This document shows, in pieces, positions 27,371-44,257 of a stretch of 64,000 nt of DNA (positions within the stretch are counted from its first letter, which is position 1; the number at the start of each line of letters is the position of its first letter). The notes beneath the pieces were generated by a model, which did no database searches, was not told the DNA's origin, and saw only the letters and a list, made by a program, of their open reading frames with translations. The DNA is taken from assembly GCA_027483605.1 (NCBI GenBank), contig JAIXUE010000022.1, positions 106,136 to 170,135 on the forward strand. Reading direction: 5' to 3'. A program made the position numbers and the translations under genes. Source of the stretch: Cryomorphaceae bacterium. GTDB taxonomy: Bacteria > Bacteroidota > Bacteroidia > Flavobacteriales_D > Crocinitomicaceae.

Positions 27371-27740
27371 AATGATCGTTTTTAATTTTTCATTTTTACA
27401 ATTGAACGCCAAATATAAAAAAACTTTAGCCCCTTTTCAAAACGAAATTTCAATGTTTCCATTAGCCTAACGCATATTTATTGTATTTCTAACACAAAGT
27501 AGGACAATTTGAATGCTTTACGCCTGCTGTTTCAAGCAGGACCGGTGAAAAGTTAATATAGATTTAACATACTTTTTTGAGTGCTTGTGCTGCAAATGCA
27601 AGCACTTGCGAAAAACAAAACTCCTTTAAATTGCAGTTGCGAATTTCAATAATGGATAATTGCACTCAAGCAATAGATTTGCCGTTCGTGCAATCATTAA
27701 ATTGTGTGTTTATCGAAAAAAGTGTATCTTTTGCTTTGCT

Positions 27741-28226
27741 ATGAGATTTTATTTAGTTGACAGAATAGAAGAAATAATCCCTGGTCAAAAGGCATCAGGA
27801 ATCAAATGTTGGACTTTATCTGAAGATTACTTTGCCGAACATTTTCCAGGTTTTCCTATCGTACCAGGGGTATTGCAAATCGAAACAATGGCCCAACTCA
27901 TGGGTATACTCATCGAGCATTCACACGCGACGGCATTTCCAGGACAAGGACGCTGTTATCCGATCTTGAGCATTGTTCAAAAAGCCAAATTTCGAGACGT
28001 GATCATACCAGGGGACCAAAGTTTCATAGAAGTAACGCTAACATCGCTCGACACCATGCGCGCAACGGGCAGCGCCAAATTACTAGTGGACGGAAAGGTA
28101 AGAGCTGAAGCCGATTTGAGTTTTACTATTTTAGAGGCAAAGCAAGCGAGTAACAATCCGTTCATTGGTCAGCGAGACGAGTATTATTTAGCCTTAAATA
28201 TCAAAGAGACGCTTAAAAAACGCTAA
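27741..28226 (+). CDS. FabZ/ApeI-like 3-hydroxyacyl-ACP dehydratase (hotdog fold)
   Basis: HFPGFPIVPGVLQIETMAQLMG retains catalytic His and Glu. Start at ATG 27741. Confidence 0.85.
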   Translation: MRFYLVDRIEEIIPGQKASGIKCWTLSEDYFAEHFPGFPIVPGVLQIETMAQLMGILIEHSHATAFPGQGRCYPILSIVQKAKFRDVIIPGDQSFIEVTLTSLDTMRATGSAKLLVDGKVRAEADLSFTILEAKQASNNPFIGQRDEYYLALNIKETLKKR

Positions 28227-29254
28227 TGCTCGCTACTATTTCGGCTATTGGATTTTGGGAGAGCGATGTGTTTTCTGCCGACGGAGCCTTGGGGCCGCGC
28301 GCAGCATTATCGCTTAATCAGGCAACCACTCAGCGACAGCTTCCTGATTTAGATGCGGCTTTTCGGCAACTCGTCCTCGATGCTACGCATCCGAATTATC
28401 CAAAGCTCAGCGACCTCAAAATTTTGCGAAATGATACTATTGCGGCCCTTATTCTGACTCAGCAGATGCAGGTGTTGCATCAATGGGATCAATCTTTTAA
28501 AGAAAAGGGTGCTTTATTGGTGGCCAACAGCAATTTTATTGATGACGATGTACTCGATTTTGAGTCAATCGCGCAGGCCGTGAGTCAGCTTCAAAAAGCC
28601 CATGACCCATCCACTGAGAATAAATTATTTGGCACGGGTATTTCACCTTTGTTGCCGCTGAGAACACTCACCAACGGGGCGCAGAGTTTTATTGCGCAGT
28701 ATTTAGATTTTTACGGGAGCTCAACAACCTATGGCAGTACGGCCATTGCCAGTATGCAGGCGCTACGAGATGCATGCAACTTGTTGCAGATCAAAGTATG
28801 CCCTGTCGTTTTAGTAGGTGGTTGTCATTATGCTAATTTGTTTTCATTTCTCAATAATTGTTTGCTCTTAAAAGACACGGTTGGTTATGCTGAGGCAAGT
28901 GCAGCGAGTTTTTTTATGTTGACACCATTTGACGGACAGGCAGCTGGTAAAAATTGTTTACACATCTTACATTTCTATAAGCACCTCGACGAACTTCTTG
29001 ACGAAAGTGCCGATTGGTTATTCTATGGTGGTGCATTCACACCACTTCAAGACAAGGAATTGTTAAACAGTTGCCAACAATTACAATATACAGCAGCATT
29101 TAGCTGGTTTGCCCACACGGGCAACTTAGGTGCTGCCGAACTCGGAATGCTGCTCGCAGCAGCTGCCAATTGGCTGTTAAAAGACCAAACTGCAGTAGTG
29201 GTGCTTCAAGACGCGTATGGCGTTGTTGAACTTTTTAAAGTACAGAAGGCATGA
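28226..29254 (+). CDS. KS-like (chain-length-factor / KS-beta-like) protein lacking the catalytic Cys
   Basis: 342 aa: DFYGSSTTYGSTAIASMQALRDA aligns by eye to the KS nucleophile-elbow region with Ala at the Cys position; AHTGNLGAAELGML resembles the KS GHTxGAAG region; immediately precedes an intact KS. Confidence 0.6.
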   Translation: MLATISAIGFWESDVFSADGALGPRAALSLNQATTQRQLPDLDAAFRQLVLDATHPNYPKLSDLKILRNDTIAALILTQQMQVLHQWDQSFKEKGALLVANSNFIDDDVLDFESIAQAVSQLQKAHDPSTENKLFGTGISPLLPLRTLTNGAQSFIAQYLDFYGSSTTYGSTAIASMQALRDACNLLQIKVCPVVLVGGCHYANLFSFLNNCLLLKDTVGYAEASAASFFMLTPFDGQAAGKNCLHILHFYKHLDELLDESADWLFYGGAFTPLQDKELLNSCQQLQYTAAFSWFAHTGNLGAAELGMLLAAAANWLLKDQTAVVVLQDAYGVVELFKVQKA

Positions 29255-30519
29255 GCAGGTTAAGGGCATATGTATTAGATACCCATACACTGAGTCCGCT
29301 GGGTTTGGGTAGTTCAGCACTACTAGCGTCTTTAAAAGATCAAAAATGTGCTGCTGCGCCGATCACTCAATTTGACCCAGCTGGATTGCCGCAAACGAAT
29401 GCTTGTGAGGTGAATACTGCCGATATTCATTGTATTGAGCAACTAACCGAGGCCTGGCAAATAGTTGCCACCAATGACCGAAAGTTTGCACTTTGGGCAA
29501 GTGTGTTACAAAGTAAACGAGCTGAACTTCAAGCGCTCTTTGGTAGTTGTCCAAAAGAAAGAACGGCTCTTTTTTTGGGTTTGGGTGCCAATGCTTTTCC
29601 CGTTCAGCGCATTGCGATGTCGGTCGCTGACTACTCAGCTTTTGGACTGAATGAAGCTATTGCCGAACTCAATTTTTATAATGGTAAAAAAGCTAATTCA
29701 ATCTTTAATCATGCCGATTTATATGGGACTTACTTTCACCAAGAAATTGCACCATATGGATTTTGTCGCAATTTAATGACTGCGTGTTCAAGCAGTACCC
29801 AAGCACTTGCTTTTGGGGCAGCACAAGTTATGTCGGGTCAAGCGGATTTAGTTTTGGCAGGTGGAACCGATTCAATTATCAACCAATTTGCCTACATCTC
29901 TTTTGGTAAATTAGGTGTGCTGAGCCCCGACCGCTGCAAGCCTTTTGATACTGGCCGCAATGGCACCATAGCAGGTGAATGTGCAGGATATACGCTACTC
30001 GCTTCAGAAGATTTTGTGCGCAGGCACGGCTTGCAGCCCCAAACTGCACTAATTGGTTTTGGCAATAGCATGGATGCTTATAAAATTACGGCTCCCGATC
30101 CAAGTGGGGCAGGTGTGGAACGTGCGGTGCGCAGTGCGCTGCAAATGGCTCAGCTAGCTCCCGAGGCAATAGATTACATCAATGCACACGGCACAGGAAC
30201 GCGTTCCAACGACGAAGCTGAGCTGCGTGCCATTGAACGTGTAATGGGCTCTGCAGCCGCCCAAATTGCAGTGAGTTCAACCAAAGACCGTCATGGTCAT
30301 GCCATTGCAGCTGCCGGCATTCAAGAATTCCATGTGCTAACAACCTGTATGACCAACGACCTTATTGCGGCAAACCTCAGTTGCGTCAATCCTATACAAA
30401 CAACACTGGAGTTGCCATTTGAAACAAACCGGACTAAAAAAATCAAGTATGCTCTCACTAATAATTTTGCATTTGGCGGTGTCAATTGCAGTTTAGTCCT
30501 TGAAAACTTAAGTTTATGA
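29251..30519 (+). CDS. beta-ketoacyl-ACP synthase (FabF-like, KS-alpha)
   Basis: 422 aa: NLMTACSSSTQALAFGA (Cys), NAHGTGTRSNDEAE (His), STKDRHGHAIAAAGIQE (His), NFAFGGVNCSLVLE. Confidence 0.93.
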   Translation: MSRLRAYVLDTHTLSPLGLGSSALLASLKDQKCAAAPITQFDPAGLPQTNACEVNTADIHCIEQLTEAWQIVATNDRKFALWASVLQSKRAELQALFGSCPKERTALFLGLGANAFPVQRIAMSVADYSAFGLNEAIAELNFYNGKKANSIFNHADLYGTYFHQEIAPYGFCRNLMTACSSSTQALAFGAAQVMSGQADLVLAGGTDSIINQFAYISFGKLGVLSPDRCKPFDTGRNGTIAGECAGYTLLASEDFVRRHGLQPQTALIGFGNSMDAYKITAPDPSGAGVERAVRSALQMAQLAPEAIDYINAHGTGTRSNDEAELRAIERVMGSAAAQIAVSSTKDRHGHAIAAAGIQEFHVLTTCMTNDLIAANLSCVNPIQTTLELPFETNRTKKIKYALTNNFAFGGVNCSLVLENLSL

Positions 30520-31271
30520 ATCTAGATTTAAAAGATAAAGTAGTATGTGTTACAGGTGCGTCTGGTGGCATAGGTTTGGCTATTGTCCGTGCTTTTTTGC
30601 ATGAGGGCGCGCTAGTCTGTGCAACTTATCACCGCAATCCAGATAAGATTGAACAGCTTAAGATGCAGCTAGAACCTTCGCTGCGCACGCATTTGCATGC
30701 CTATCATTTGGATCTTCAAGACAACCACAGCCACAAGACTTGTATTTCCCATATTTGTGCTGAGCAGCAACGAATTGATGTTTTGGTCAATTGTGCGGGC
30801 GCCGCTTTAGAAAAACCTTTCTTACTTTTAACGCCGGAAGAAATCACTCAGCAGATGACCACGAATTTTAGCCAACAAGCACTTTTCACCCAACAAGTAG
30901 CCAAAGTGATGCTTGCACACCGAAAGGGGAGTATTGTCAATGTTTCGAGTTTACTTGCAAAACGCTTGGGTAGAGGAGTAGCAGTTTATGCTGCTGCGAA
31001 AGCAGCTATTGACCGTTTCACACAAACCCTGGCTTTAGAAGTTGGAAAGAAAGGCATCAGGGTAAACAGTATCAATCCTGGGCTAATTGCGACAAAAATG
31101 AGTAAAAATATTCAAGCAAATATGCCAGCTGATCTCATGAATATGAGCCCAATTTCAAGACCCGGCACACCTGAAGAAATTGCAAATGCCGTCCTGTTTT
31201 TAGCCTCAGATCGAGCAGCTAGTTACATCACTGGTGTTTGTCTGTCCGTAGACGGCGGACTCAGTATTTAA
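30516..31271 (+). CDS. FabG-like 3-oxoacyl-ACP reductase (SDR)
   Basis: GASGGIGLAI, NCAGAA, SIVNVSS...YAAAKAAIDRFTQTLALEVGKKGIRVNSINPG. Confidence 0.93.
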   Translation: MNLDLKDKVVCVTGASGGIGLAIVRAFLHEGALVCATYHRNPDKIEQLKMQLEPSLRTHLHAYHLDLQDNHSHKTCISHICAEQQRIDVLVNCAGAALEKPFLLLTPEEITQQMTTNFSQQALFTQQVAKVMLAHRKGSIVNVSSLLAKRLGRGVAVYAAAKAAIDRFTQTLALEVGKKGIRVNSINPGLIATKMSKNIQANMPADLMNMSPISRPGTPEEIANAVLFLASDRAASYITGVCLSVDGGLSI

Positions 31272-31292
31272 ATCAAATTTCATAATCTAACC

Positions 31293-31688
31293 ATGACACA
31301 AAACGAAGAAATTATCGAACAAATCAAACGCATCATCCAGCAATCTTGTGGAATAGACCCTGAGGTAATGCATGCGCATTCAACGATATTTGATGAATTG
31401 AGTATAGATTCGATTGATATGGTCGACATCTTGTTTCAGCTTGAAAGACACTATGATATAGAGCTAAAAATTTCAGAAATAGAGCAGCAGTCAAAGGTAG
31501 AAATGGGGGATGAGCCATTTGAGATCAACCAAGTCATCACTGCCAAAGGTCTAGAGGTGTTGCGTCGCCGTATGCCAGAGATAGATCCCAACGCACTCAC
31601 GGAGGGCCTTACCATGTTTGAAGTCATTAAATTGATCAATATTCAGAGTTTGGCAAATATGGTGCTGCATCAACTCGCAAAGAAATAG
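31293..31688 (+). CDS. acyl carrier protein
   Basis: DELSIDSIDMVDILFQLERHYDIEL with phosphopantetheine-type Ser; 131 aa, longer than housekeeping AcpP. Confidence 0.88.
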   Translation: MTQNEEIIEQIKRIIQQSCGIDPEVMHAHSTIFDELSIDSIDMVDILFQLERHYDIELKISEIEQQSKVEMGDEPFEINQVITAKGLEVLRRRMPEIDPNALTEGLTMFEVIKLINIQSLANMVLHQLAKK

Positions 31689-31692
31689 TACC

Positions 31693-32829
31693 ATGCAAGG
31701 AGTCGTATACCGCGTCGCTGCACAAGAAAAGCTCTACGGCTTCGGTGATTCTATTTTGGATGTTCCAATTTTGAACGAAAGTTTAGGGAACTATCAAGCC
31801 CGCATTTGTGCGCAATGTGGCTTACAAATCATTGATGTAGCCACACGAGCAGAACTGCCTAGCACAGATTTTCCGCTTTGGTATTTTGACGCCAAGATGG
31901 TTTTTACCCTAGATTTTTTGAAGTTGGCCATTCAACGAGCCAAAGATGACCCAACGTCATTTTTGCAATTTGGTTTGAAAAAGCATCCGTCTATTCAGCA
32001 ACACTCTTTACCGCTCGCTCCAAACGATAAGGATCTATTGTTTCCTTTTTTTTTCAAAGGCAGTGAATCAAAGCAAGCCACAATAATTCAATTAGAAGGC
32101 AAAGAGTATGACTGGCAAATTCACATGCCAAGTCAGGTCATGCCTGGAGGTGTTTACAGTTTGAATCAAAATGCAGTTTTTGCTACCTTGCTCTTGTCCC
32201 CATTTCATTTGCATGGCGCAAATATGGCCCTGAATTTGAACAGAGGTTTAAAGCTTCAGGCACTGCTCCCGGATTGGCTGCGGAAACGTATTTCCAAACC
32301 ATTTACCAAACTGACCTCTATTGGTTTGAAATCCATGAACCAAAAAGGGAAGAATTGTCGGATCCATCCGACTGCAGTGGTAGAGGGTTGTGTGCTCGGA
32401 GATGACGTCACCATCGGAGCCAATGCGGTATTGCGCATGAGCATGATTGGCAGTGGAACTTTTGTCGGCGATACAGCCGTGGTGAGTTTCTCTGTAATTG
32501 GCGCCAACAATTTTGTCAGTACGGGTAACCACTTGGTCAATAGCATGACTTATCCTTCTGTTTTTACAATCCACGGACCTTATCAATACAGCATTTTTGG
32601 TCAACACTCAGCGGTCTTTGCTACTATCAATTCCGATATCAGACTCGACACAAAAACAATTAAAATTCCGACGGAAGTTGGTGTCTGCGATTCAGATCAA
32701 ATTTTGCTTGGCGTGGCTTACGGACACCGATCAAAAATAGGTGGTTCGAATATCATTGCAGCTGGCCGCTTGGTGCCAAATGATTACGTGCTGAATCCGC
32801 CAAATTTCATTACCTTGAACTTTGACTGA
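31693..32829 (+). CDS. left-handed beta-helix (hexapeptide repeat) protein, putative acyltransferase
   Basis: GKNCRIHPTAVVEGCVLGDDVTIGANAVLRMSMIGSGTFVGDTAVVSFSVIGANNF hexapeptide repeats following a novel ~220-aa N-terminal region. Confidence 0.7.
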   Translation: MQGVVYRVAAQEKLYGFGDSILDVPILNESLGNYQARICAQCGLQIIDVATRAELPSTDFPLWYFDAKMVFTLDFLKLAIQRAKDDPTSFLQFGLKKHPSIQQHSLPLAPNDKDLLFPFFFKGSESKQATIIQLEGKEYDWQIHMPSQVMPGGVYSLNQNAVFATLLLSPFHLHGANMALNLNRGLKLQALLPDWLRKRISKPFTKLTSIGLKSMNQKGKNCRIHPTAVVEGCVLGDDVTIGANAVLRMSMIGSGTFVGDTAVVSFSVIGANNFVSTGNHLVNSMTYPSVFTIHGPYQYSIFGQHSAVFATINSDIRLDTKTIKIPTEVGVCDSDQILLGVAYGHRSKIGGSNIIAAGRLVPNDYVLNPPNFITLNFD

Positions 32830-33908
32830 TGGCAAGCACTACCTTTTTAATCGGCGCATATGGTTACACGGCAAAGCTGATTGCCGCAAAAATGGCGGAG
32901 GCCAATTTGTCATTTATTGCTGTTGGTAGAGATCAGTCGAAACTCGAGCAAGTGCTGCAGGGCTTTGCTAATTGTGTTGGAATCATAGTTGCAGACTGTC
33001 AGGATGCTGCAGATTTGGGTTTTGTGGCAGAAGGAGCAATAGTTGTGAACTGTGCGGGACCTTTTAACCTATTTGCCCCACAACTCATCAGCAAATGTAT
33101 AGAGGTTGGCGCGCATTATCTCGATATCACCGGTGAACAAGAAATTGTGCGCCAAAGTTATGAGCACTATGCAGCACTTGCTATACAAAAGCAGGTTTGT
33201 ATTGTCCATTCAATGGCTTTTGAATCTGCTCTGTCTGATTTGCTTTTGAGTCGGGCTTTACAGCAAATCAATCCTTCAGAGATAGAAGAAGTACTGTCCT
33301 ATTATCAGTTAGGGAGCCAGCAAATGAGTCCTGGAACCAAACTGACCATGAAGTTAGCGAACTATGCTCCAAATTACATAGTGGAAGACCAGTGCTTGTC
33401 GCCATTCGTGCATCAAGCTGCGCACGTTCCAGCAGGGCTGCCCTTCGAGGCGGCCAGAATTGTACCTTATCCAGAAGTCATTTTTGCATATGAACGTCTG
33501 AAACCAAAGCGCGCGGCATCACATTTTGTTGTTGAACAAGGGAGTAATCTAGCTTTTACAGGTAACTTAGCGCAAGCAGCGCCTAAGCAAAAGACACCGA
33601 TCGATTCCATCATTGATCGCTTTAAAAAGGTTGTGCATGTTGGGCCTGATGCAAACGCACGAGCGGGGCAAACATTTGATCTCTATTTGTTGGTGCGCAC
33701 CACACACAAAGACCATATGGAGTCGATTGCCGGCTCTAATATGTATGAGCTAACAGCAGCCCTAGTGGTGCTGGCGCTTCAACGCTTCGGGCTGTCAACG
33801 CTTCATTTAGGCGTACAGAGTCCTGGGCAGTTTTTGGGGCAAAGTGGCTTGAGATGGCTCGCTAACAACCCCTATTTTCAATTCAAAAACCATCAACCAA
33901 TAAAATAA
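32829..33908 (+). CDS. saccharopine dehydrogenase NADP-binding-fold protein, candidate trans-acting enoyl reductase
   Basis: FLIGAYGYTAKLIAAKMAEA...VVNCAGPFNLFAPQLISKCIEVGAHYLDITGEQEIV, resembling the Rv2449c/Rv2953-type family. Confidence 0.7.
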   Translation: MASTTFLIGAYGYTAKLIAAKMAEANLSFIAVGRDQSKLEQVLQGFANCVGIIVADCQDAADLGFVAEGAIVVNCAGPFNLFAPQLISKCIEVGAHYLDITGEQEIVRQSYEHYAALAIQKQVCIVHSMAFESALSDLLLSRALQQINPSEIEEVLSYYQLGSQQMSPGTKLTMKLANYAPNYIVEDQCLSPFVHQAAHVPAGLPFEAARIVPYPEVIFAYERLKPKRAASHFVVEQGSNLAFTGNLAQAAPKQKTPIDSIIDRFKKVVHVGPDANARAGQTFDLYLLVRTTHKDHMESIAGSNMYELTAALVVLALQRFGLSTLHLGVQSPGQFLGQSGLRWLANNPYFQFKNHQPIK

Positions 33909-33909
33909 G

Positions 33910-36636
33910 ATGCAAAAACTTAAGTTCACGATGCATTTATTGGTTTTCCCAGCCCTACAGCTATTGGTTATACTGGGTTTAATGATCTGGCCACTCTCCA
34001 CTATTGGCTCAATTGCTTTGGTTTTCCTTGCTGCGTTTTTGCTCAATTGGAATTTACACGTGAGTGTGCATCATTTAGTCCATCATCCGCCGAAAAACTT
34101 GGTCATCCGTCATTTGTGTTACCTGATTTCCTCTTTAATGTTAGGGCTCCCTTTTCATTATTATCAGCTCATTCATCGAAATCACCACGCCTATAATAAT
34201 GAACAAGGTGATTTTACCAGTACTTGGTCCATTCAAAATGGCCAATTGGTTCCTAGACCTTTCTGGACTTACGTCTTGTTCTGGTGGTTGCCCCAAGTTT
34301 CTATTGGAACACAGCTCAAAGCTGCTCGGTCTGCGGGTTGGTTGAGCCCAAAAGGTTGGCGCTTGCTTAGTTTGGAATTACTTGCAATTTTTTTGTTTTA
34401 CGGTTTGCTTTTTTTGTGCTTCGGTTGGAAAGTCCTGTTGTATGCCCTTCTTGTTTATTTGGGCTGGGTACTCATCAGTGCTCAAAATTATGGTCAGCAC
34501 TTGCCAAAAGACGTTCAGATCCAGACAACAAGTGTACACAAGAAGTGGTACAATTGGCTAACACTCAATAATGGTTTACACCACGAACACCACCAAAAAC
34601 CACAGTTAACTTATGATCGTTTGGAGAAAAATCAACAATTAGAGGTGCTTCAAACGCCACATTTAAGTGCTGGATTTTGGCCCAATAAGTGGCGAGGCAG
34701 TTTTGTACTTGCTTTATGTATTATTATAGGCCTGCTCACGCAGCTCCCAAATCTACAAATGACCGGTAGCCTTGACGGTTTTGCTGTTGGGGATACACAA
34801 GTATTTAAAGATGCACGCAACTATGATTCCATTTTTGGACAGAGTAAATATCGGTACTATTGGAGTATCACGCCTAGTGCAAACGGCAAGTTGAGTTTTC
34901 TGACTTCTTGTACTCAATTTGAACAAGATCTCAAAGAACTGGCACCTTCCCTCGAGTTCATTACCTCAGCTCGGCAATTGCGTAAATTTGCTCAGCTTCG
35001 CTTGTATTCCAAGCAAATGAGCGCACAGCAATTTTTAAAAATTGCTTCACAACACCCCCAATTAGGCAAACTCATTTCCAAAGATGGGCGATCATTTATT
35101 GTGATTGGAGACTTTAAAGGGACTTCAATTCCACTGAAAAAACTGGCTAAGTTAGAACAACAATCACGCCTGCAAATAGCGCAAATCAGAGGTTTTGGAA
35201 TTCAAGGTCTTGAGGCAGCTATCGCTAGCTCAATGCAGGACGATATCATCACTATAACTGGGCTCATTTTCATTTTGTTTGGGGCTTATCTATTCTGGCG
35301 TTACCGTCACATGAGTGCCATTCTTTACTTAGTGACGAACATGCTGTTATCTATATTGATTACGCTTTGTTTGTTTCCCCTTTTTGGTTATCAAATGACT
35401 GCAGTGAGTATTCTTGCTCTTCCTATTGTTCTGGTGCTTTCTTTGAGTGATGTCGTCCATTTACTTGGAGGCATCGCAAAGGGTCAATCGAGTACTGCTA
35501 CCATTTCAAAAATTTGGGTTCCATCTTTACTGAGCAGCCTGACGACCGCTATCGCATTTTTTAGTTTTCAATTCAATGATGCTCCTAATATGGTCCAGCT
35601 TGGAACCGTAACTGGTACCGCAGTCATACTTGAATTTTTAGTATCCGTTGCATTGGCGCAGCAATTTTTACACAAAGTGCGTTTGCGCAAGGAAGAAAGC
35701 CCAGTCATCATGAATACTAGTCATTTTTTGGAGCGTCATCAAAAAACCATTGGTTGGGGCTTGTTGGGATTGGTGTTGGTTGCCCTTTTATTGCTACCGA
35801 AGCTTCGTTTTGAAGCGACTACCGACGATTTTTTTCCGGACGGACATCCTGTAACGCAAGAGCACGCCTATTTCAAGCGCCAATTTGACGCACAAAAAGT
35901 ATTGCATTTGTGGTTTGATAAACAGCAAGATGAAGCGCAGCAGCGCAGTGAGATAGAGCTTTGGCTACAAAAACAAAAAGCCCCACAACTCATCGGTTAT
36001 GACATCCAAAGCCAAGTATCTGGCCTGCCCACAACGGTAAACATGTATTTTTCAGACATTAAGGCAATAGGGGTTTATTACAGAAGACTCGAACGAGATG
36101 GATTTTTAAAGCAAAATGACTTAGGCCTTCACGCTTACAGCACATTTGTGGTATTTGATGTAGTGAATCAGCAGGTGGCTTCTTCTTTGTTTTGGAGTTT
36201 GTTAACTGCCAGTTCTGCAATTGTTTTACTGATGTTATGGTTGACAAAAAATCCTCTTCAAGCTTTGATTGGTTTTTTGCCCAATTTAGTGCCACTTGCA
36301 GCTGTCGTAGTGGTTTTTGTGGGCTTAGATCAGGGTCTTAATATGCTCACTGCCCTCACTTTGGTGGTTTGTGTAGGCCTGCTCGACGACGACACCATAC
36401 ACGTTTTGTATCAAAAGTATGTGCTGCGCGCACCAGTTGCCCAAATGAATCCGATCATCATTCATGCGGCAGTGTTGCTTGCCTTAGGTTTTGGATGTTT
36501 TATCTTAAGTAATTTCAAGCCAACACGCCTGTTTGGTGGTGTGAGCGCATTGGTTTTTGTGGTGGGTCTCTTGGGAGAACTCACCCTATTTCAATGGATT
36601 TTAAACCAATTCAAGCAGGATAGTCATGAGCAATAA
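33910..36636 (+). CDS. fusion protein: N-terminal membrane fatty acid desaturase + C-terminal RND/MMPL-type transporter
   Basis: 908 aa. N-term His boxes VHHLVHH, HRNHHAYNN, NGLHHEHH; C-term two hydrophobic blocks with RND signatures (ILALPIVLVLSLSDVVHLLGG; TTDDFFPDGHPV; LTLVVCVGLLDDDTIHVLYQKY). Confidence 0.8.
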   Translation: MQKLKFTMHLLVFPALQLLVILGLMIWPLSTIGSIALVFLAAFLLNWNLHVSVHHLVHHPPKNLVIRHLCYLISSLMLGLPFHYYQLIHRNHHAYNNEQGDFTSTWSIQNGQLVPRPFWTYVLFWWLPQVSIGTQLKAARSAGWLSPKGWRLLSLELLAIFLFYGLLFLCFGWKVLLYALLVYLGWVLISAQNYGQHLPKDVQIQTTSVHKKWYNWLTLNNGLHHEHHQKPQLTYDRLEKNQQLEVLQTPHLSAGFWPNKWRGSFVLALCIIIGLLTQLPNLQMTGSLDGFAVGDTQVFKDARNYDSIFGQSKYRYYWSITPSANGKLSFLTSCTQFEQDLKELAPSLEFITSARQLRKFAQLRLYSKQMSAQQFLKIASQHPQLGKLISKDGRSFIVIGDFKGTSIPLKKLAKLEQQSRLQIAQIRGFGIQGLEAAIASSMQDDIITITGLIFILFGAYLFWRYRHMSAILYLVTNMLLSILITLCLFPLFGYQMTAVSILALPIVLVLSLSDVVHLLGGIAKGQSSTATISKIWVPSLLSSLTTAIAFFSFQFNDAPNMVQLGTVTGTAVILEFLVSVALAQQFLHKVRLRKEESPVIMNTSHFLERHQKTIGWGLLGLVLVALLLLPKLRFEATTDDFFPDGHPVTQEHAYFKRQFDAQKVLHLWFDKQQDEAQQRSEIELWLQKQKAPQLIGYDIQSQVSGLPTTVNMYFSDIKAIGVYYRRLERDGFLKQNDLGLHAYSTFVVFDVVNQQVASSLFWSLLTASSAIVLLMLWLTKNPLQALIGFLPNLVPLAAVVVVFVGLDQGLNMLTALTLVVCVGLLDDDTIHVLYQKYVLRAPVAQMNPIIIHAAVLLALGFGCFILSNFKPTRLFGGVSALVFVVGLLGELTLFQWILNQFKQDSHEQ

Positions 36637-38443
36637 TAAGGTCCAATTACAAGCGCAAAAAGTTTGGGCCCTCAATGGCAATGAGGCGCTGGCTTATGGT
36701 GCACTGCATGCAGGCGTTGCTTATTTTGCGCATTATCCGGGTTCGCCGGTAAATGGAATAGAACCAGTATTGAAACAACTCAATGCACAGCATGCCGCGC
36801 AAATCACCTTTAACGATGCACTTAATGAGCATGTTGCCGCTTGTGCTGCCATGGGAGCAAGTATGGCGGGTGCACGCACGATGCTCGTTATGAAACATGT
36901 GGGGCTGAATATCGCTGCAGACCCACTCAACTATGTAGGTTACGCTGGCATTAAAGGTGGAATGTTAATAGTGGTGGGCACTGACCCAGGAGCTAATTCA
37001 AGTACCGGAGAAGAAGATGTACATTGGTATGCCAAACAATTCAACTTACCACTATTTGAACCCACCAGCCCGCAGGGGCTTTATGATTGTTGTATAGATG
37101 GCTTTGCGCTATCTGAAGAGCTCGGCTTACCTATTCTTGTTTTTGCTACTGGTCTTATCTGCCATCAAAGTACCCGAATTCAGACACGGCAAAAAGCATT
37201 TGCACCGCGTCAATATTTTTTTGAAAAGGACCGAGATCGCTATATCAATGTGGGCCAACGGGCCGTGCAAAACCACCGCTTATTGCTTGAAAAAATAGCG
37301 ACATATGCCAACACACACGCTTTTTTTGAGGTAACTGGTCCGAAATCACCTCCCTTAGCAGTCATTACCAGAGGCAATACGAGTTTACATTTTCCGGAAA
37401 TCAGAACACATATTCCCCAATTAGCCAATTGCACCTGGATTCAACTCACCGGGGTTTACCCATTGCCCACCATGGCTTTGTTACCCTTGCTTCAAGACAA
37501 AACAGAGATTATCATCATGGAGGATCAAGACGGTTTTGTGGAGTATTTACTTAAAATGGAGTTGTTCAATACCCTCAAAGCCAAAATTCAGGGGAAGAAT
37601 TTGTTTCCAGCGCATGGCGAATTGCGCGTTAATGAATTATTGGCCATTCTCTGTAAGCACTTTGAGCTCCCATATCCATATGAGGGCTTACCTAGCTTGC
37701 CCATTCCTGAGCGCCTAGGTACTTTTTGTGAGGGTTGTCCGCATACGGGAAGTTATTTTGCCATAGAGCAGGCCTTACCTGAACAAGAACGCATCATTGG
37801 AGGAGACATTGGGTGCTCTTCCTTGCCACCTTTTCGGGCAGATTGGTTACTGTGTATGAATGCCGGAGTTGGCTTAGCACAGGGCATGGCTCCATTTGTA
37901 ACTTCGCAAAAATTGGTCTCTACAGGTGGCGATGGTAGTTTTTTTCACGGTGGTTTACTTGCTGTACTCAATGCTGTTCAAAATAAAGTCAATTTGGTTC
38001 ACTTAGTTTTTGACAATAAAAGTGTCGCCATGACCGGTCACCAAGCTTCAGCATCTACCCAAGTTGCCTATGCCGATTTGCTAGAGGCTTTAGGGGTTAC
38101 TTCTTTTGCTGAGGCTAGTGCTTTTCATCCAAAGGAATTGGAGGCATTGGTAAGAGAAAAAGAACAACTCGATGGTGTTCATGTCATTTGGGTGAGTGGT
38201 GCATGCGCGCGAATTCCAGATGCCCGCGCGAACTTTAGACGTGCTACCTACGCACCGCAAATCGATGCCAGCAAATGCGCCTCATGTACCCTGTGTTATG
38301 AGGCTTTGGCTTGCCCTGCGATTGATCAAAATGATTTAGGGCAGTTTCAAATCGATTTATCGCGCTGTATGCGCTGTGGTGTGTGTCATGAAATTTGCCC
38401 GAACGATGCCATCGATTTGGGAGCTAAAAACATGAAAGCATGA
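36626..38443 (+). CDS. iorA: indolepyruvate (2-oxoacid):ferredoxin oxidoreductase alpha subunit
   Basis: 605 aa: GNEALAYGALHAGVAYFAHYPGSPV, FCEGCPHTGSYFAI, GDIGCSSL, TGGDGSFFHGG (TPP motif), two C-terminal Fe-S motifs CASCTLCYEALACP and CMRCGVCHEICP. Confidence 0.9.
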   Translation: MSNNKVQLQAQKVWALNGNEALAYGALHAGVAYFAHYPGSPVNGIEPVLKQLNAQHAAQITFNDALNEHVAACAAMGASMAGARTMLVMKHVGLNIAADPLNYVGYAGIKGGMLIVVGTDPGANSSTGEEDVHWYAKQFNLPLFEPTSPQGLYDCCIDGFALSEELGLPILVFATGLICHQSTRIQTRQKAFAPRQYFFEKDRDRYINVGQRAVQNHRLLLEKIATYANTHAFFEVTGPKSPPLAVITRGNTSLHFPEIRTHIPQLANCTWIQLTGVYPLPTMALLPLLQDKTEIIIMEDQDGFVEYLLKMELFNTLKAKIQGKNLFPAHGELRVNELLAILCKHFELPYPYEGLPSLPIPERLGTFCEGCPHTGSYFAIEQALPEQERIIGGDIGCSSLPPFRADWLLCMNAGVGLAQGMAPFVTSQKLVSTGGDGSFFHGGLLAVLNAVQNKVNLVHLVFDNKSVAMTGHQASASTQVAYADLLEALGVTSFAEASAFHPKELEALVREKEQLDGVHVIWVSGACARIPDARANFRRATYAPQIDASKCASCTLCYEALACPAIDQNDLGQFQIDLSRCMRCGVCHEICPNDAIDLGAKNMKA

Positions 38444-38991
38444 GCCAAGAATTGCGCATATTGGTAGCGGGTATCGGAGGGCAGGGCATTCATGGCTTTG
38501 TACGGGTACTGCAACAAGAAATGGACGAACAAGGTTTTGAACTCATTTGTGCCCGCTATAAGGGAGGAGCACAAAGCCTAGGTTCTGTGCATGCCGAATG
38601 CAAAGTATTTTTGACAAAAGAGCAGTCCAATACGCAGCAAAGTAGTCAGTTGATACCTGGAACACTCGATATCTTGCTTGGCCTCGAACGCTGGGAAACC
38701 TTGCGTTTTTTGCCTTTTTGCCATGCCAAAACGCTCATCGTTTGCGATGCCTTCACAGAATTCCCCCCAGGAACCAAAAGACAAATAGGGCTCCCAACCA
38801 TAGACTCCTATTTTACCCAATTAGACAATCCATTGATATGCAAGGATTTTAATGCACTTGCAAAAGGAAAAGGCTTGTCTAAATCAGCGGTGCCCGTCTT
38901 GTTGTTTAATGAGGCAATTGATGCACTTGGACTGAAACAACTTATTGAACCACTTAAAACAGATACATATGAATTGGAAAGAAAGCTCTAG
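38440..38991 (+). CDS. iorB: indolepyruvate (2-oxoacid):ferredoxin oxidoreductase beta subunit
   Basis: RILVAGIGGQGIHGFVRVLQQEM...RYKGGAQSLGSVHAECKVF; 4-nt overlap with iorA. Confidence 0.88.
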   Translation: MSQELRILVAGIGGQGIHGFVRVLQQEMDEQGFELICARYKGGAQSLGSVHAECKVFLTKEQSNTQQSSQLIPGTLDILLGLERWETLRFLPFCHAKTLIVCDAFTEFPPGTKRQIGLPTIDSYFTQLDNPLICKDFNALAKGKGLSKSAVPVLLFNEAIDALGLKQLIEPLKTDTYELERKL

Positions 38992-40336
38992 AGTGGCCAT
39001 GCATTGGCATCCTCATGAAAATGGCAGTAAAATTGTTTGTGACCTTTGCCCAAGACATTGTCAGACCCAAGCGGGTCAGATGGGATTTTGCAAGGTACGT
39101 GGAAACGTAGATGGTACTTTTCACACTTTTAACTTCGGTAAGTCGGTGACGGCTACCCAAGAGTGTATAGAGACCGAGGCAGTCAATCATTTTATGCCTG
39201 GCGCACGTATTTTGAGTCTTGGCAATATCGGTTGCATGATGGCTTGCTCGTATTGTCAGAATTGGCAAACTTCTCAAATTAAACACCTCAATGATGCCAA
39301 TGTCTTTGAATATACTCCAGAGCAAGTCATTGAATTAGCGGTCTCTAATGATATCAAAGTCATTTCTTGGACCTACAATGATCCGGTTGTTTGGCACGAA
39401 TTTGTATTAGAAACTTCAAAACTTGCCAAAGCAGCAGGGCTTACGACCTTATATAAATCAGCGCTCTACATTGAGCTTGAACCGCTGCGCGAATTAATTG
39501 AAGTGATTGATATCTTTTCGATTTCACTTAAATGTATGGACGATGCTATTTACCGAAAAGAAAACAAAGGTAAATTACAGCCCGTACTAGATGCCATAGA
39601 ACTGATTGCCGCCTCTGACCGCCATTTGGAAATTTCGCAATTGGTCGTAACGGGTCTCAACGACGACGGCACTGATGCCATCAAAACGGCGCGTTGGATG
39701 CGCGAAAAGCTCAGGCCGGAGGTCCCACTTCATTTGGTGGCGTATCACCCGAGTTTTAAGTATAAAAAACCGCGCACCGAATTGGCAACACTTCTGAAAT
39801 TGCGTGAACTCGTCCTCAATGAAGGATTAGAGTATGTGTACTTAGGTAACGTATATGCCGACGACATGAGCAATACGTATTGTAAATCATGTTCAAACCT
39901 CCTCGTGGAGCGCTTTGGTCTTTCTGTGCAGGTGCCCGGACTCGATGCGCATGGCAATTGTAAAAAATGCCAAACACCATCTGTCATTAAAGATGCATTG
40001 GGTGGACAACCTACAGAAAAGCCCGTTGCCACACCTTTTGTTTCTGCACAATCACAAACTTTTGAGTGGAACGATGAAATCAGGTCTGTACACATATTCT
40101 TGGACCAACCCAAAAAGGAAACCGTACGCATCAGGCTGACACGTCTGCCTAAAAATTCGGAACAATATTTAGAATTAAACGAGGGGCTCGAGCGCATTAT
40201 TTTGTCTAAAAGTAGTGCTGACGAGACACAGCTCATTATCGAAACTGCTTGTCAAACAACGCTGCATATTTTACCGGTACTCGATCGCGCGCATTTCCCT
40301 GTGATTGATGAAACAAAAGCGTCGAGTTATGCATAA
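38969..40336 (+). CDS. AmmeMemoRadiSam-system-type radical SAM protein (AmrS-like)
   Basis: CDLCPRHCQTQAGQMGFCKVRGN...LGNIGCMMACSYCQNWQTSQ (CX3CX2C radical SAM motif), plus ~100-aa C-terminal extension. Start at Met 38969. Confidence 0.85.
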   Translation: MNWKESSRVAMHWHPHENGSKIVCDLCPRHCQTQAGQMGFCKVRGNVDGTFHTFNFGKSVTATQECIETEAVNHFMPGARILSLGNIGCMMACSYCQNWQTSQIKHLNDANVFEYTPEQVIELAVSNDIKVISWTYNDPVVWHEFVLETSKLAKAAGLTTLYKSALYIELEPLRELIEVIDIFSISLKCMDDAIYRKENKGKLQPVLDAIELIAASDRHLEISQLVVTGLNDDGTDAIKTARWMREKLRPEVPLHLVAYHPSFKYKKPRTELATLLKLRELVLNEGLEYVYLGNVYADDMSNTYCKSCSNLLVERFGLSVQVPGLDAHGNCKKCQTPSVIKDALGGQPTEKPVATPFVSAQSQTFEWNDEIRSVHIFLDQPKKETVRIRLTRLPKNSEQYLELNEGLERIILSKSSADETQLIIETACQTTLHILPVLDRAHFPVIDETKASSYA

Positions 40337-41447
40337 ACTGACCCAGATTTTAAAGCAACGTGTAGACACCACGAACGCAGCACCTGTGGTAACGCCCATC
40401 TACCAAAACAGTGCTTTTGAGGCGCATTCACCATTTTTTTATACCCGCAAGAACAATCCCAATGTCGAGGAATTAGAGCAAGTTTTTTGTGCTTTGGAAG
40501 AGTGTGCTCATTCGGTATGTTGTTCTACGGGAATGGCCGCTATTTCAAACACGTTGCTTTTGTTAAAACCAGGAGCTCATTTGGTGATCAACCAACTCAT
40601 TTATGGCTGTTCTTACGTTTTATTTGAAAGGTTCTGTGAACAGTATCAAATACAGCTCACGGTGCTAGACCTTTCCAGCCCTGATGGCATTAGTGCCATG
40701 CCTGAAGATGTCAGTATGGTTTTATTCGAAACACCGACCAATCCTTTTGTGCGCAGCATAGACATTGCAGCCGTTGCACAGCGTGCCAAAGCATGTAATC
40801 CAGCTTGTTTGGTGGTGGTAGACAACACTTGGGCCACGCCTTTATTTCAACAGCCGTTGCTGCACGGTGCAGATCTAGCGTTGTATTCCGCCACCAAATA
40901 CTTCTCTGGTCACAGCGATGTCATGGGCGGGGTACTCACGACCAACGATGAGGCCCTTGCCCAAAAATTGAGAGAAGCACGTTTTTACCATGGCGCCATT
41001 ATGGATCCTAATAGTGCATGGTTATTGCGTCGAAGCATGCAAACCTTTCATATCAGAATGCGTGCACATGGCCAAGCGACTACTCAAATTAGAGATTGGT
41101 TAAAGTTACAAAGTGGCGTGGAAGAAGTCTTTTATCCCAACATAGACGGACATCAGTTAACCGGTTACGCGACCTTATTGTTTTTTACGCTAGATGCCCG
41201 ATTGAGTGAACGATATGATGATTTTGTAGCAGCATTGCAACTCTTTGACACCGGAACAGGTATGGCTTGCGTCACCTCGATGGTTGCGCGCCCTTATACA
41301 GGAAGTCATGCGTCTATGAATGAGCAGCAAAAGCAGCAGATGGGCCTGAACCGTCAATTGGTTCGCCTCAGTATTGGTTTAGAAGAAGTACAAGACCTTA
41401 TTGCTGATCTGCGTCAAGCATTTGATCAAATTGGAGCTCATGATTAA
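40329..41447 (+). CDS. Cys/Met metabolism PLP-dependent enzyme (cystathionine gamma-synthase / methionine gamma-lyase-like)
   Basis: TPIYQNSAFE, FYTRKNNPNVEELE, CCSTGMAAI, VVVDNTWATPLFQQPLLHGADLALYSATKYFSGHSDVMGGVL (Lys-PLP motif). Confidence 0.9.
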   Translation: MHKLTQILKQRVDTTNAAPVVTPIYQNSAFEAHSPFFYTRKNNPNVEELEQVFCALEECAHSVCCSTGMAAISNTLLLLKPGAHLVINQLIYGCSYVLFERFCEQYQIQLTVLDLSSPDGISAMPEDVSMVLFETPTNPFVRSIDIAAVAQRAKACNPACLVVVDNTWATPLFQQPLLHGADLALYSATKYFSGHSDVMGGVLTTNDEALAQKLREARFYHGAIMDPNSAWLLRRSMQTFHIRMRAHGQATTQIRDWLKLQSGVEEVFYPNIDGHQLTGYATLLFFTLDARLSERYDDFVAALQLFDTGTGMACVTSMVARPYTGSHASMNEQQKQQMGLNRQLVRLSIGLEEVQDLIADLRQAFDQIGAHD

Positions 41448-42564
41448 TGAACTACAGGACCATCGTATTTTAACACTCAAGTCGATAGCAATTTTATCGC
41501 TGCTTATTTTACACATTGCACTTAGTTTTACTTGGATTCCTCAACTCTACGGCATTTGGCCCATTGGAACCAATACACCGAGTATCAACCTCACTGGATT
41601 AGCCTCCTTTTTAAATCTGTTTGGCCTCCTTTTGTTTTTTATTCTATCTGGATTTTCAATCAGAAAAAAAGCATTTGATCAGGAGCACTACCTCCTTGAG
41701 AAAGTGCAGCAAAATACCCGGCGATTTATTTGGTATTATGTTTTGCTTTCTCTTCTTTTCTATTTGCTTTTGTCTGCTTCAGAATGGCGCTTTTTAACAT
41801 TTTTTGAGTGTACATTTTTAACCTCGTTCTATCATTTGTGGTTCTTAGCTGCCCTTGCTTTTTTTCAGTTACTTCTCGTTTTTGCACGAAAAATTCTAGC
41901 ATCACGACTACAAAACATACGCATCCCTCTTTTTATCCCTTTATCTATTCACGCTTTAGGCCTTTTTTTTCAGGGTGGTGTTTTTCTAAAAACACCGACA
42001 CAATTGGATTCGTCTACGCTTTTAAGTATCGGTGTTTACTTCTGTTGGTTTTTTTATGGTTTTACGCTTTGCAATGGCCCTTTTCGTTTATCTAAACCTT
42101 TTTCGGCGCTCCGAATCTTGGGTGTCATGACTTTGCTGAGCCTTTATTTTATGGCCAAGACGGCGCTTTTGTTTTCTTGGACTTTTGGACTTTTCTGGCA
42201 GCTGCTTGGTTCAGTACTTGATCCTTTGGCATTTTTAGCCGCTTTACAAGTTTGTTTTTGGTTAATCGAAAAATATCATCAACAACGAACAACGCAGTCC
42301 ACAGATTATCTTCAGACTTTTTTACAGCGCTACCAGTTGCCTATTTATGTGTTTCAGATTCCTTTGATTTTTCTGCTCGTCTCTATTCTAGAAAAAATGG
42401 GTGCAGTCTTTTTAACACTTGATCAGTTGCCGCAGGCGCTACCTAACTGGGAGGAATCTTTGTCTACGTGGGGCCTGTTTTATCTGTTATTGCTCTTTTT
42501 TACTTTGGCACTTCTGCTCTTGTGGCGTTATCACCAACAAAAAACCCCTCATTCCAAAGAATAA
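41440..42564 (+). CDS. acyltransferase-3 family membrane protein
   Basis: LKSIAILSLLILHIALSF...LFGLLLFFILSGFSIRKKAF; ~10 TM segments; start at Met 41440. Confidence 0.75.
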   Translation: MINELQDHRILTLKSIAILSLLILHIALSFTWIPQLYGIWPIGTNTPSINLTGLASFLNLFGLLLFFILSGFSIRKKAFDQEHYLLEKVQQNTRRFIWYYVLLSLLFYLLLSASEWRFLTFFECTFLTSFYHLWFLAALAFFQLLLVFARKILASRLQNIRIPLFIPLSIHALGLFFQGGVFLKTPTQLDSSTLLSIGVYFCWFFYGFTLCNGPFRLSKPFSALRILGVMTLLSLYFMAKTALLFSWTFGLFWQLLGSVLDPLAFLAALQVCFWLIEKYHQQRTTQSTDYLQTFLQRYQLPIYVFQIPLIFLLVSILEKMGAVFLTLDQLPQALPNWEESLSTWGLFYLLLLFFTLALLLLWRYHQQKTPHSKE

Positions 42565-42572
42565 GGGGTTTT
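42539..42572. terminator. bidirectional Rho-independent terminator overlapping the end of the acyltransferase CDS
   Basis: AAAAAACCCCTcattccaaagaataAGGGGTTTT; the stop codon (42562-42564) lies in the loop/3' arm side. Confidence 0.85.
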
Positions 42573-42576
42573 GATG

Positions 42577-42647
42577 AGGTCTCAAGCAGATTCGAACTGC
42601 TGTAGACGGTTTTGCAGACCGGTGCCTAACCGCTCGGCCATGAGACC
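42577..42647 (-). tRNA. tRNA-Cys (anticodon GCA)
   Basis: Reverse complement GGTCTCATGGCCGAGCGGTTAGGCACCGGTCTGCAAAACCGTCTACAGCAGTTCGAATCTGCTTGAGACCT folds as cloverleaf; loop CTGCAAA gives anticodon GCA; no encoded CCA. Confidence 0.92.
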
Positions 42648-42695: not shown

Positions 42696-44249
42696 TTAGA
42701 ACTTGATGATTTTTTTTGACAATAATTGGCCATTGACCCTTGCCGATACAAAGTAAATACCTTTTGGCAGGCCAAACCACTCATCATTTTGGGTCCCTAA
42801 ATAGAGCTGTGTGGTTCCTGTTTCAGGGGTGAGCTTCATTTTGACTTGGCCGTTGACATCATAGATGAAAATCAAATCGGTCTCGTTTAGTGATAGCGGG
42901 AAAGCCAAGGTGAGGGCCTCTTGTGTCGGATTCGGGTAGGCCAAGATGGTACTGTTGTCGTCGGGTGGGTATTCGTTCAAAGAGGCGCTGATCAGGGCTT
43001 CAAGGTCATAAGTTTCGTCGCCGGGCTGGTAGGGTAAATAATGAAAATAGGTCAAGAACATTTCGTCTGTGGTATTGAAGCCGCTATAGACATTTTGAGG
43101 CGGTGAATTGGGATTATTTGGGTTATTAGCGGTGTTGTCATAGGTGCCCTCGCTTTTGAGTTTGTAGCCGGGCGGCACTTTTTGAATAAACTTAAAAAAG
43201 TAGAAATCTTGCCACATAAAATCCCATTTAGGCACATTGACAAATTTCACGGTGTCAGCACCAGGTTTGTATGCATAAGCTTTGATGCTCGTACCGAGTA
43301 AGTGCATATGTGGAAAAACAGAAAGTACGGAAAAATTGGTAGGAATGGTTTGTGAACCCGGTGGATACGTAGCACTTAATGCCGTGATTTGCCCGGCAGG
43401 TAATACAAAACTGTTGTCGGCTAATAAGGGGCCTGCACTAATTTGCCGCACATTGGTGGTGCCAACAGGATAAAAATGCAAAATCACTTTTGTAGAATCA
43501 AAAAGCCCATACGAACCCATGGGGTAGTGCATCGCAAAGTAAATAGAAGAGCCCGGGCCAATATCTAGCCCCAGTTTAATGGGGTCTGTGGAGGGTAAAA
43601 TCATGGGTGTTGCCCCCGGTGTATAACCCGTTACTAATTTTGTGCTGGCATTGCTAGGGCTCGCGCAATTGCCACCGATGGTGTCAGTTGCCTCTATGCT
43701 GGTTGGGTCGAGGTAGATGAGGCAGTGGTGTACAATTTCTCTGTTGCCAGGTACCACCTCAACGGCTTTGATGATGCGATTTTGTGTGAGGTTGGTTGGG
43801 ATACTGAAGCAAACGTAGTCGTCTTGGGTGGTAGCCTTAGACATATATGTGGGGATCTGCACTTGTAAATCACCATTGCCGAGAAAAGTATTGGAGGTGT
43901 AGACGGGAGGAGGAGGTGTTTGGCTGGCGTTCCCCTCTGGCGCACCGTTATTGAGCCAGTTCATGATGGTGCTTTTTTCGGTAGTAGAAAGCGCGCGGTT
44001 GTGTTGGTATTGTTGGTAATTGTTGTCTGGAGGCCACGGCGGCATTTCGCCTGTATTGATGCATTGATACACCGCAGCAGCCAATGGACTTACCTCTGCG
44101 TGTGTCATGAGTGAAAAAGGTGCTGCTCCACCGGGGTGATGGCAGGCCGTACATTTGTTATAAAAAACTTGTGCGACATCACTGCTCCAAGTTTGGCCTT
44201 GGGTAGTGATGCTAGTTAGAACAAAAAGGGCAAATAAAATACTTCTCAT
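42696..44249 (-). CDS. T9SS-sorted protein with heme-binding (CxxCH) N-terminal domain and copper type II ascorbate-dependent monooxygenase-like domain
   Basis: FYNKCTACHHPGGAAPFSL, REIVHHCLIYLD, IYFAMHYPMG, VFPHMHLLGTSIKAY, C-terminal YPNPTQEALTL...GIYFVSARVNGQLLSKKIIKF sorting domain. Confidence 0.82.
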   Translation of the reverse strand: MRSILFALFVLTSITTQGQTWSSDVAQVFYNKCTACHHPGGAAPFSLMTHAEVSPLAAAVYQCINTGEMPPWPPDNNYQQYQHNRALSTTEKSTIMNWLNNGAPEGNASQTPPPPVYTSNTFLGNGDLQVQIPTYMSKATTQDDYVCFSIPTNLTQNRIIKAVEVVPGNREIVHHCLIYLDPTSIEATDTIGGNCASPSNASTKLVTGYTPGATPMILPSTDPIKLGLDIGPGSSIYFAMHYPMGSYGLFDSTKVILHFYPVGTTNVRQISAGPLLADNSFVLPAGQITALSATYPPGSQTIPTNFSVLSVFPHMHLLGTSIKAYAYKPGADTVKFVNVPKWDFMWQDFYFFKFIQKVPPGYKLKSEGTYDNTANNPNNPNSPPQNVYSGFNTTDEMFLTYFHYLPYQPGDETYDLEALISASLNEYPPDDNSTILAYPNPTQEALTLAFPLSLNETDLIFIYDVNGQVKMKLTPETGTTQLYLGTQNDEWFGLPKGIYFVSARVNGQLLSKKIIKF

Positions 44250-44257
44250 GAGGGCAT

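Follow-up and report, generated by a model that had tools for sequence, protein, structure and literature searches.

The window analysed here, a stretch of 64,000 nucleotides on contig JAIXUE010000022.1 of a freshwater Cryomorphaceae bacterium (family Crocinitomicaceae in GTDB; assembly GCA_027483605.1; genome G000, 2.39 Mb), contains a block of 13 genes that includes a second type II fatty acid/polyketide synthase set: a condensing ketosynthase (KS), a KS partner without the active-site cysteine (KSb), a ketoreductase (KR), a dehydratase (DH), an acyl carrier protein (ACP) and a possible enoyl reductase. This set is genetically tied to a desaturase, an RND exporter, a radical SAM enzyme (rSAM) and a Cys/Met-type pyridoxal phosphate (PLP) enzyme. 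We propose, with a probability of roughly 0.6, that all 13 belong to a single operon-like unit for the biosynthesis of an exported lipid, acting through the steps outlined below. The product would be an acyl lipid carrying a part that is derived from an amino acid or modified by radical chemistry. The 13 open reading frames (ORFs) span positions 27741-42564 of the window, all on the + strand, and most overlap their neighbors, with junctions ranging from a 23-nt overlap to a 21-nt gap. Family scans give the order DH, KSb, KS, KR, ACP, left-handed beta-helix protein (LbH), saccharopine-dehydrogenase-like oxidoreductase (SDH), desaturase-RND fusion, IorA, IorB, rSAM, PLP enzyme and acyltransferase-3 (AT3). 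The ORF calls and scans agree with the order, strand and overlaps reported in an initial annotation of this DNA; its count of 12 genes has to be corrected, as its own list comprises 13 proteins.

The gene block is a real, conserved and selected unit. Two other genomes, G011 and G050, carry all 13 in the same order at this locus, and ten core genes are common to these and to two diverged clusters, in G988 and G121, which places the observation far beyond chance. The ratio of nonsynonymous to synonymous substitution rates relative to G011 is 0.02-0.12 in 12 of the 13 genes; for KR it could not be computed because the synonymous sites are saturated. The diverged clusters were located with a profile of LbH, which served as the cluster marker in overlapping genome samples taken within Bacteroidota. 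In G988, which belongs to the same genus and carries the cluster in another genomic context, the order is DH-KSb-KS-KR-ACP-LbH-SDH-desaturase-RND-IorA-IorB-rSAM-PLP enzyme, and a different acyltransferase-3 gene, without a blastp match to the window AT3, lies just upstream. In G121, from another order of the same class, the order is DH-KSb-KS-KR-ACP-LbH-SDH-RND-B12-radical-SAM-rSAM-PLP enzyme; this cluster lacks the desaturase, IorAB and AT3. A gene for a family 5 glycoside hydrolase, encoded on the opposite strand, interrupts it between KS and KR (L022, 12763-14793). The record VHBC01000005.1 (L014) is titled Sphingomonadales, and the matching G050 is placed in the genus of the window genome, with flanks alike gene for gene; the title is probably wrong.

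The marker LbH was found in 4 of 240 genomes of the family, 4 of 393 of the order and 3 of 388 of the class, and among 396 genomes of the phylum a full-length match occurred only in the window's own genome. The conservation across Bacteroidota that the initial annotation had named as support is therefore thin. Plasmid records yielded no LbH, and their radical SAM matches were ordinary AmmeMemo proteins only. Among 28 genomes, only carriers had cluster-type IorA and rSAM; genomes of the family without the cluster had neither.

The synthase genes retain the residues expected of active enzymes. DH (27741-28226), a FabZ/FabA-like dehydratase (PF07977, 69 bits), has the His/Glu motif HFPGFP..PGVLQIE(T/S)M in all five homologues. 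KS (29251-30519; PF02801, 103 bits; PF00109, 65 bits) has a complete Cys-His-His set and the KDRHGHA motif. KR (30516-31271) is of the short-chain dehydrogenase/reductase type (PF13561, 195 bits) with the glycine-rich, Ser, Tyr and Lys motifs kept, and ACP (31293-31688; PF00550, 41 bits) has the phosphopantetheine Ser in 5/5 homologues and a conserved C-terminal extension of ~55 aa. SDH (32829-33908; PF03435, 39 bits) is an NAD(P)-binding oxidoreductase resembling trans-acting enoyl reductases, with the motif GA(Y/T)G(Y/F)T. More generally, the catalytic motifs of DH, KS, KR, ACP, IorA, rSAM, the PLP enzyme and the desaturase are intact wherever a cluster encodes the protein. KS falls in a clade of its own, separate from FabF, ApeO and ApeR with 100% support, and scores 210.9 against the FabF equivalog, below the cut-off of 493.75. 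The housekeeping FabF of the window genome is found elsewhere (G000:C42:8287-9516, 607.7 bits), and every genome tested has a separate true FabF besides the cluster KS; therefore, the cluster encodes a dedicated synthase. With the intact motifs and the recurring core, this makes dedicated type II fatty acid or polyketide-like lipid synthesis and export, as first suggested for this locus, the likely general reading.

The identity of KSb (28226-29254) is less clear. The active-site Cys, whose absence had been noted initially, is indeed missing in 5/5 homologues, and the KS-type GH motif is absent too. Kinship with ketosynthases, which the initial annotation had also implied, is very weak: PF00109 gives 18.8 bits, below its cut-off, and hhalign against ketosynthases gives a probability of 52-62% from shallow profiles. 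Identity to distant homologues is 22-23%, and the position in the cluster is always the same. Judging from these sequence features, KSb is probably a KS-beta-like partner. Searches of the PDB gave no useful template for KSb and none for SDH.

Among the tailoring genes, rSAM (38969-40336) is the most conserved protein, with 57-60% identity across distant clusters and the CX3CX2C motif in 5/5 homologues. It scores 290.7 bits against TIGR04337, the AmmeMemoRadiSam-type radical SAM family (cut-off 220), and carries an additional C-terminal domain of ~120 aa. The usual partners of this family are AMMECR1 and Memo. Neither AMMECR1 (PF01871) nor Memo (PF01875) is present in G000, G011, G050, G121 or G020 (a cluster-free relative discussed below), and both were detected in control genomes. 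Thus, despite its family score, rSAM is not part of an AmmeMemoRadiSam system, from which it also differs in the extra domain and the lipid operon context. The PLP enzyme (40329-41447), of the cystathionine gamma-synthase/methionine gamma-lyase family (PF01053, 321 bits), keeps the PLP Lys, the Tyr/Arg residues and a YGC(S) motif in 5/5 homologues and falls under every equivalog cut-off; we take its YGC motif to be that of methionine gamma-lyases.

The desaturase-RND fusion (33910-36636) joins an N-terminal membrane fatty acid desaturase (about aa 1-265; PF00487, 72.6 bits, His boxes kept) to a C-terminal RND/MMPL exporter (about aa 258-908). The two parts are separate neighboring genes in G988, and the RND gene occurs alone in G121. 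The best family match of the RND part is HpnN, and lipid export by HpnN-type hopanoid exporters is a fair analogy; however, the score is 40 bits against a cut-off of 752, and the protein is fused to a desaturase. IorA (36626-38443) reaches 399.7 bits for TIGR03336, under the equivalog cut-off of 650.9, and keeps the thiamine pyrophosphate motif and two 4Fe-4S Cys sets. By these signatures it is a relative of the alpha subunit of indolepyruvate/2-oxoacid:ferredoxin oxidoreductases, the family score assigning no substrate; its PDB matches were to ferredoxin domains only. IorB (38440-38991), the beta/gamma-like subunit, matches PF01558 weakly (23.3 bits), and its G988 homologue scores 62.9 bits, above the cut-off. 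LbH (31693-32829; PF00132, 33.5 bits) had been called simply a beta-helix protein, which is correct; specifically, it is a left-handed (hexapeptide) beta-helix with a family-specific N-terminal domain and a putative acyltransferase. It has 101 invariant columns across five homologues, and PDB searches matched it to generic hexapeptide enzymes only. AT3 (41440-42564; PF01757, 35 bits), a membrane acyltransferase-3 protein with about 9 hydrophobic segments, is the fastest-evolving gene, its 47-64% identity to close homologues being the lowest among the 13.

We propose that the KS/KSb pair elongates an ACP-bound chain that KR, DH and SDH would reduce. The chain may then be oxidised by the desaturase in the clusters of G000 and G988, and perhaps by the B12-radical-SAM enzyme in G121. 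The fusion of the desaturase to the exporter, though split in G988, would tie chain oxidation to export. Over long distances, identity is 57-60% for rSAM (as given above), 51-53% for the PLP enzyme, 41% for KS, 29-31% for RND and 28-30% for SDH, with KSb lowest. Because rSAM and the PLP enzyme evolve slowly while the chain machinery drifts, we infer that the two build or attach a small part of the product that stays constant and probably derives from an amino acid. LbH, AT3 or both may acylate the product, and the RND protein would carry it over the inner membrane.

By oxidising a 2-oxoacid with CoA, IorAB would yield an acyl-CoA or reduced ferredoxin for use by the desaturase and rSAM, or both. 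The desaturase and IorAB are jointly present or jointly absent, and in G121 their place is taken by a B12-radical-SAM protein closest to HpnJ, BchE and TIGR04072. This covariation, seen in three lineages only, suggests that IorAB supplies reduced ferredoxin to the desaturase, with the B12 enzyme as a replacement that does not need oxygen. A comparable exchange is familiar from chlorophyll synthesis, in which BchE is the oxygen-independent counterpart of AcsF. The initial annotation had assigned to IorAB the supply of a 2-oxoacid-derived starter unit. That assignment is possible but uncertain: G121 keeps the PLP enzyme and rSAM without clustered IorAB, which makes IorAB a variable rather than a core part, and electron supply fits equally well.

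Several points weigh against this scheme. The reaction order, the starter unit and the functions of SDH, LbH, rSAM, the PLP enzyme, IorAB and AT3 are drawn from family names, and the desaturase-IorAB link comes from three lineages. On another contig, G121 encodes a distant IorA-like protein with an IorB-like neighbor (25-27% identity, other context), and its lack of IorAB may be only apparent. Sequence ties KSb to ketosynthases only weakly, and AlphaFold models of KSb and LbH, built from alignments of three sequences, were poor (predicted local distance difference test, pLDDT, of 40).

An aryl polyene, flexirubin or xanthomonadin-type pigment cluster would account for the general set of KS, KS-like partner, KR, DH, ACP and RND protein. 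We compared the cluster protein by protein with the aryl polyene cluster ape of E. coli CFT073 (PMC8253772), which likewise combines type II KS, KR, DH, ACP and an RND exporter in one long overlapping operon. KS, KR and ACP are homologous to ApeO, ApeQ and ApeF, and DH weakly to ApeI. However, the RND protein has no blastp match to ApeM, KSb has none to ApeC, and among the cluster proteins no counterpart was found of the acyl-ACP synthetase ApeH (the starter ligase), ApeN, ApeB, ApeC, the LolA-like carrier (nor any LolA/LolB-like protein), the thioesterase, the lysophospholipid acyltransferase or the glycosyltransferase; no AMP-ligase or ammonia-lyase Pfam family occurs among the 13 proteins. 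The enoyl-reductase-like gene, IorAB, rSAM and the PLP enzyme are foreign to such clusters, and the exporter-fused desaturase is a further difference from ape. With the separate clade of KS, these differences make a pigment cluster highly improbable, in agreement with the initial view that the locus is not a standard aryl polyene or flexirubin one. Kinship with the radical-SAM clusters for type II fatty acid synthesis (FASII) of anammox bacteria and Desulfotalea, of the ladderane or polyunsaturated hydrocarbon type, is also unlikely, though not to the same degree. According to the description of the Kuenenia and Desulfotalea clusters (PMC2649909), on which the comparison is based, a dedicated FASII set with FabZ, FabG, ACP and FabF paralogues lacking active-site residues is joined there to (B12-)radical SAM enzymes. 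The B12-radical-SAM protein of G121 indeed gives 92.9 bits to TIGR04072 ("lipid biosynthesis B12-binding/radical SAM"). Yet this is far under the cut-off of 360, HpnJ and BchE score higher, and the window cluster has no B12-radical-SAM enzyme at all, its radical SAM being of the TIGR04337 type. Moreover, the passages considered name no IorAB, PLP enzyme, LbH or desaturase-RND fusion, and the phytoene-dehydrogenase-like genes they report are missing here.

No role in lipid synthesis is known for the enzymes of the second half, and one could suppose that a fatty acid synthase operon and an anaerobic 2-oxoacid/radical SAM module became neighbors by chance. This is hardly credible: the synthase half and the rSAM/PLP half stay together in three genomic contexts, with identities of 40-60%, so that the co-occurrence foreseen initially is found elsewhere, and IorA and rSAM are absent from cluster-free relatives. 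For rSAM and the PLP enzyme chance is essentially refuted; IorAB joins the cluster in two of the three contexts. A specific form of the exported-lipid reading has the PLP enzyme, acting as a gamma-lyase, convert methionine or a homoserine derivative to 2-oxobutyrate, from which IorAB would form a propionyl-CoA starter for an odd-chain product. The catalytic residues and the YGC motif agree with this, and IorAB-type enzymes are established to turn 2-oxoacids into acyl-CoA. We consider it doubtful, nevertheless, as G121 retains the PLP enzyme without clustered IorAB, the PLP enzyme reaches no equivalog cut-off, and gamma-replacement is as likely as gamma-elimination. More speculatively, and only as a tentative suggestion, the clusters may define a new exported-lipid family: an AmmeMemo-type radical SAM enzyme free of AMMECR1 and Memo, together with a gamma-lyase-type PLP enzyme, would make the constant part, and chain oxidation would be interchangeable between an O2-dependent desaturase fed with electrons by IorAB and an O2-independent B12-radical-SAM enzyme.

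Type II KS-based lipid clusters of Bacteroidota are known mainly for aryl polyene and flexirubin pigments. The present one combines other enzymes, in a set that is shared by separate lineages and for which we found no description in the open literature searched; neither such a cluster, nor an indolepyruvate-type oxidoreductase with ketosynthase clusters, nor a function for the AmmeMemo-type radical SAM was found there. The cluster gives this radical SAM family a gene context in lipid metabolism. Since there are carriers and a close relative that probably lost the cluster, the product could be found by lipidome comparison.

The operon has been inserted between exbB and tRNA-Cys; in related genomes this site is empty. 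In relatives without the cluster exbB lies beside the gene found at 42696 here; in those examined for it (G020 and G024), tRNA-Cys separates the two. Compared with the empty site of G020, the island extends from 27571 to 42537: homology stops on the left at TTAATATAGATTTAACAT (27553-27570) and resumes on the right at 42538. The tRNA-Cys(gca) itself (42576-42647, - strand) was identified by ARAGORN and Rfam. A tree of flanking proteins places G020 within the clade of the carriers (97% support for the clade of G000, G011 and G020), and G020 is cleanly without the cluster. Because it is nested among carriers, the cluster was probably gained once in the clade and then cleanly lost in G020; replacement of the locus by recombination is a possible alternative. 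The bidirectional terminator described initially at the 3′ end is present as a hairpin (42538-42572), which contains the AT3 stop codon. It is, however, the older terminator of tRNA-Cys: the same hairpin accompanies the tRNA at the empty site of a relative (L046), which argues that it predates the cluster, and the operon now ends in it as well. An integrative element at tRNA-Cys was considered and rejected, as the window has no second copy of the tRNA end and none of the 13 ORFs of the island encodes an integrase. In G011, four extra genes, including those for a PD40 beta-propeller and a Fib_succ_major protein, lie between AT3 and tRNA-Cys (L016, 6038-9616); genes seem to accumulate at this spot beside tRNA-Cys.

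The region before the operon contains a pair of similar stretches, about CACTTGCGAAAAACAAA and AGTTGCGAATTTCAATAA, spaced 30 bp apart (27603-27619 and 27635-27653). Similar pairs precede the clusters in G011 and G050, and they could be a candidate regulator site. Directly before the DH start, at about 27705-27740, a TTG-N20-TATCTTTTG match loosely resembles a Bacteroidota promoter; the spacing is 21 in G011, and the match is absent in G050.

Directly downstream of the G988 cluster, a convergent gene encodes a GH3-family amido synthetase (L053, 6852-8342). Enzymes of this family couple acyl acids with amino acids, and the gene may be part of the pathway in G988. An Acido-Lenti-1 RNA match (40.3 against a gathering score of 37) occurs in G121, a Bacteroidota genome (L023, 14316-14360). 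In the window, beyond tRNA-Cys, positions 42696-45568 encode two adjoining secreted proteins with Por secretion tails, one similar to copper type II monooxygenases and the other a BD-FAE-type esterase.

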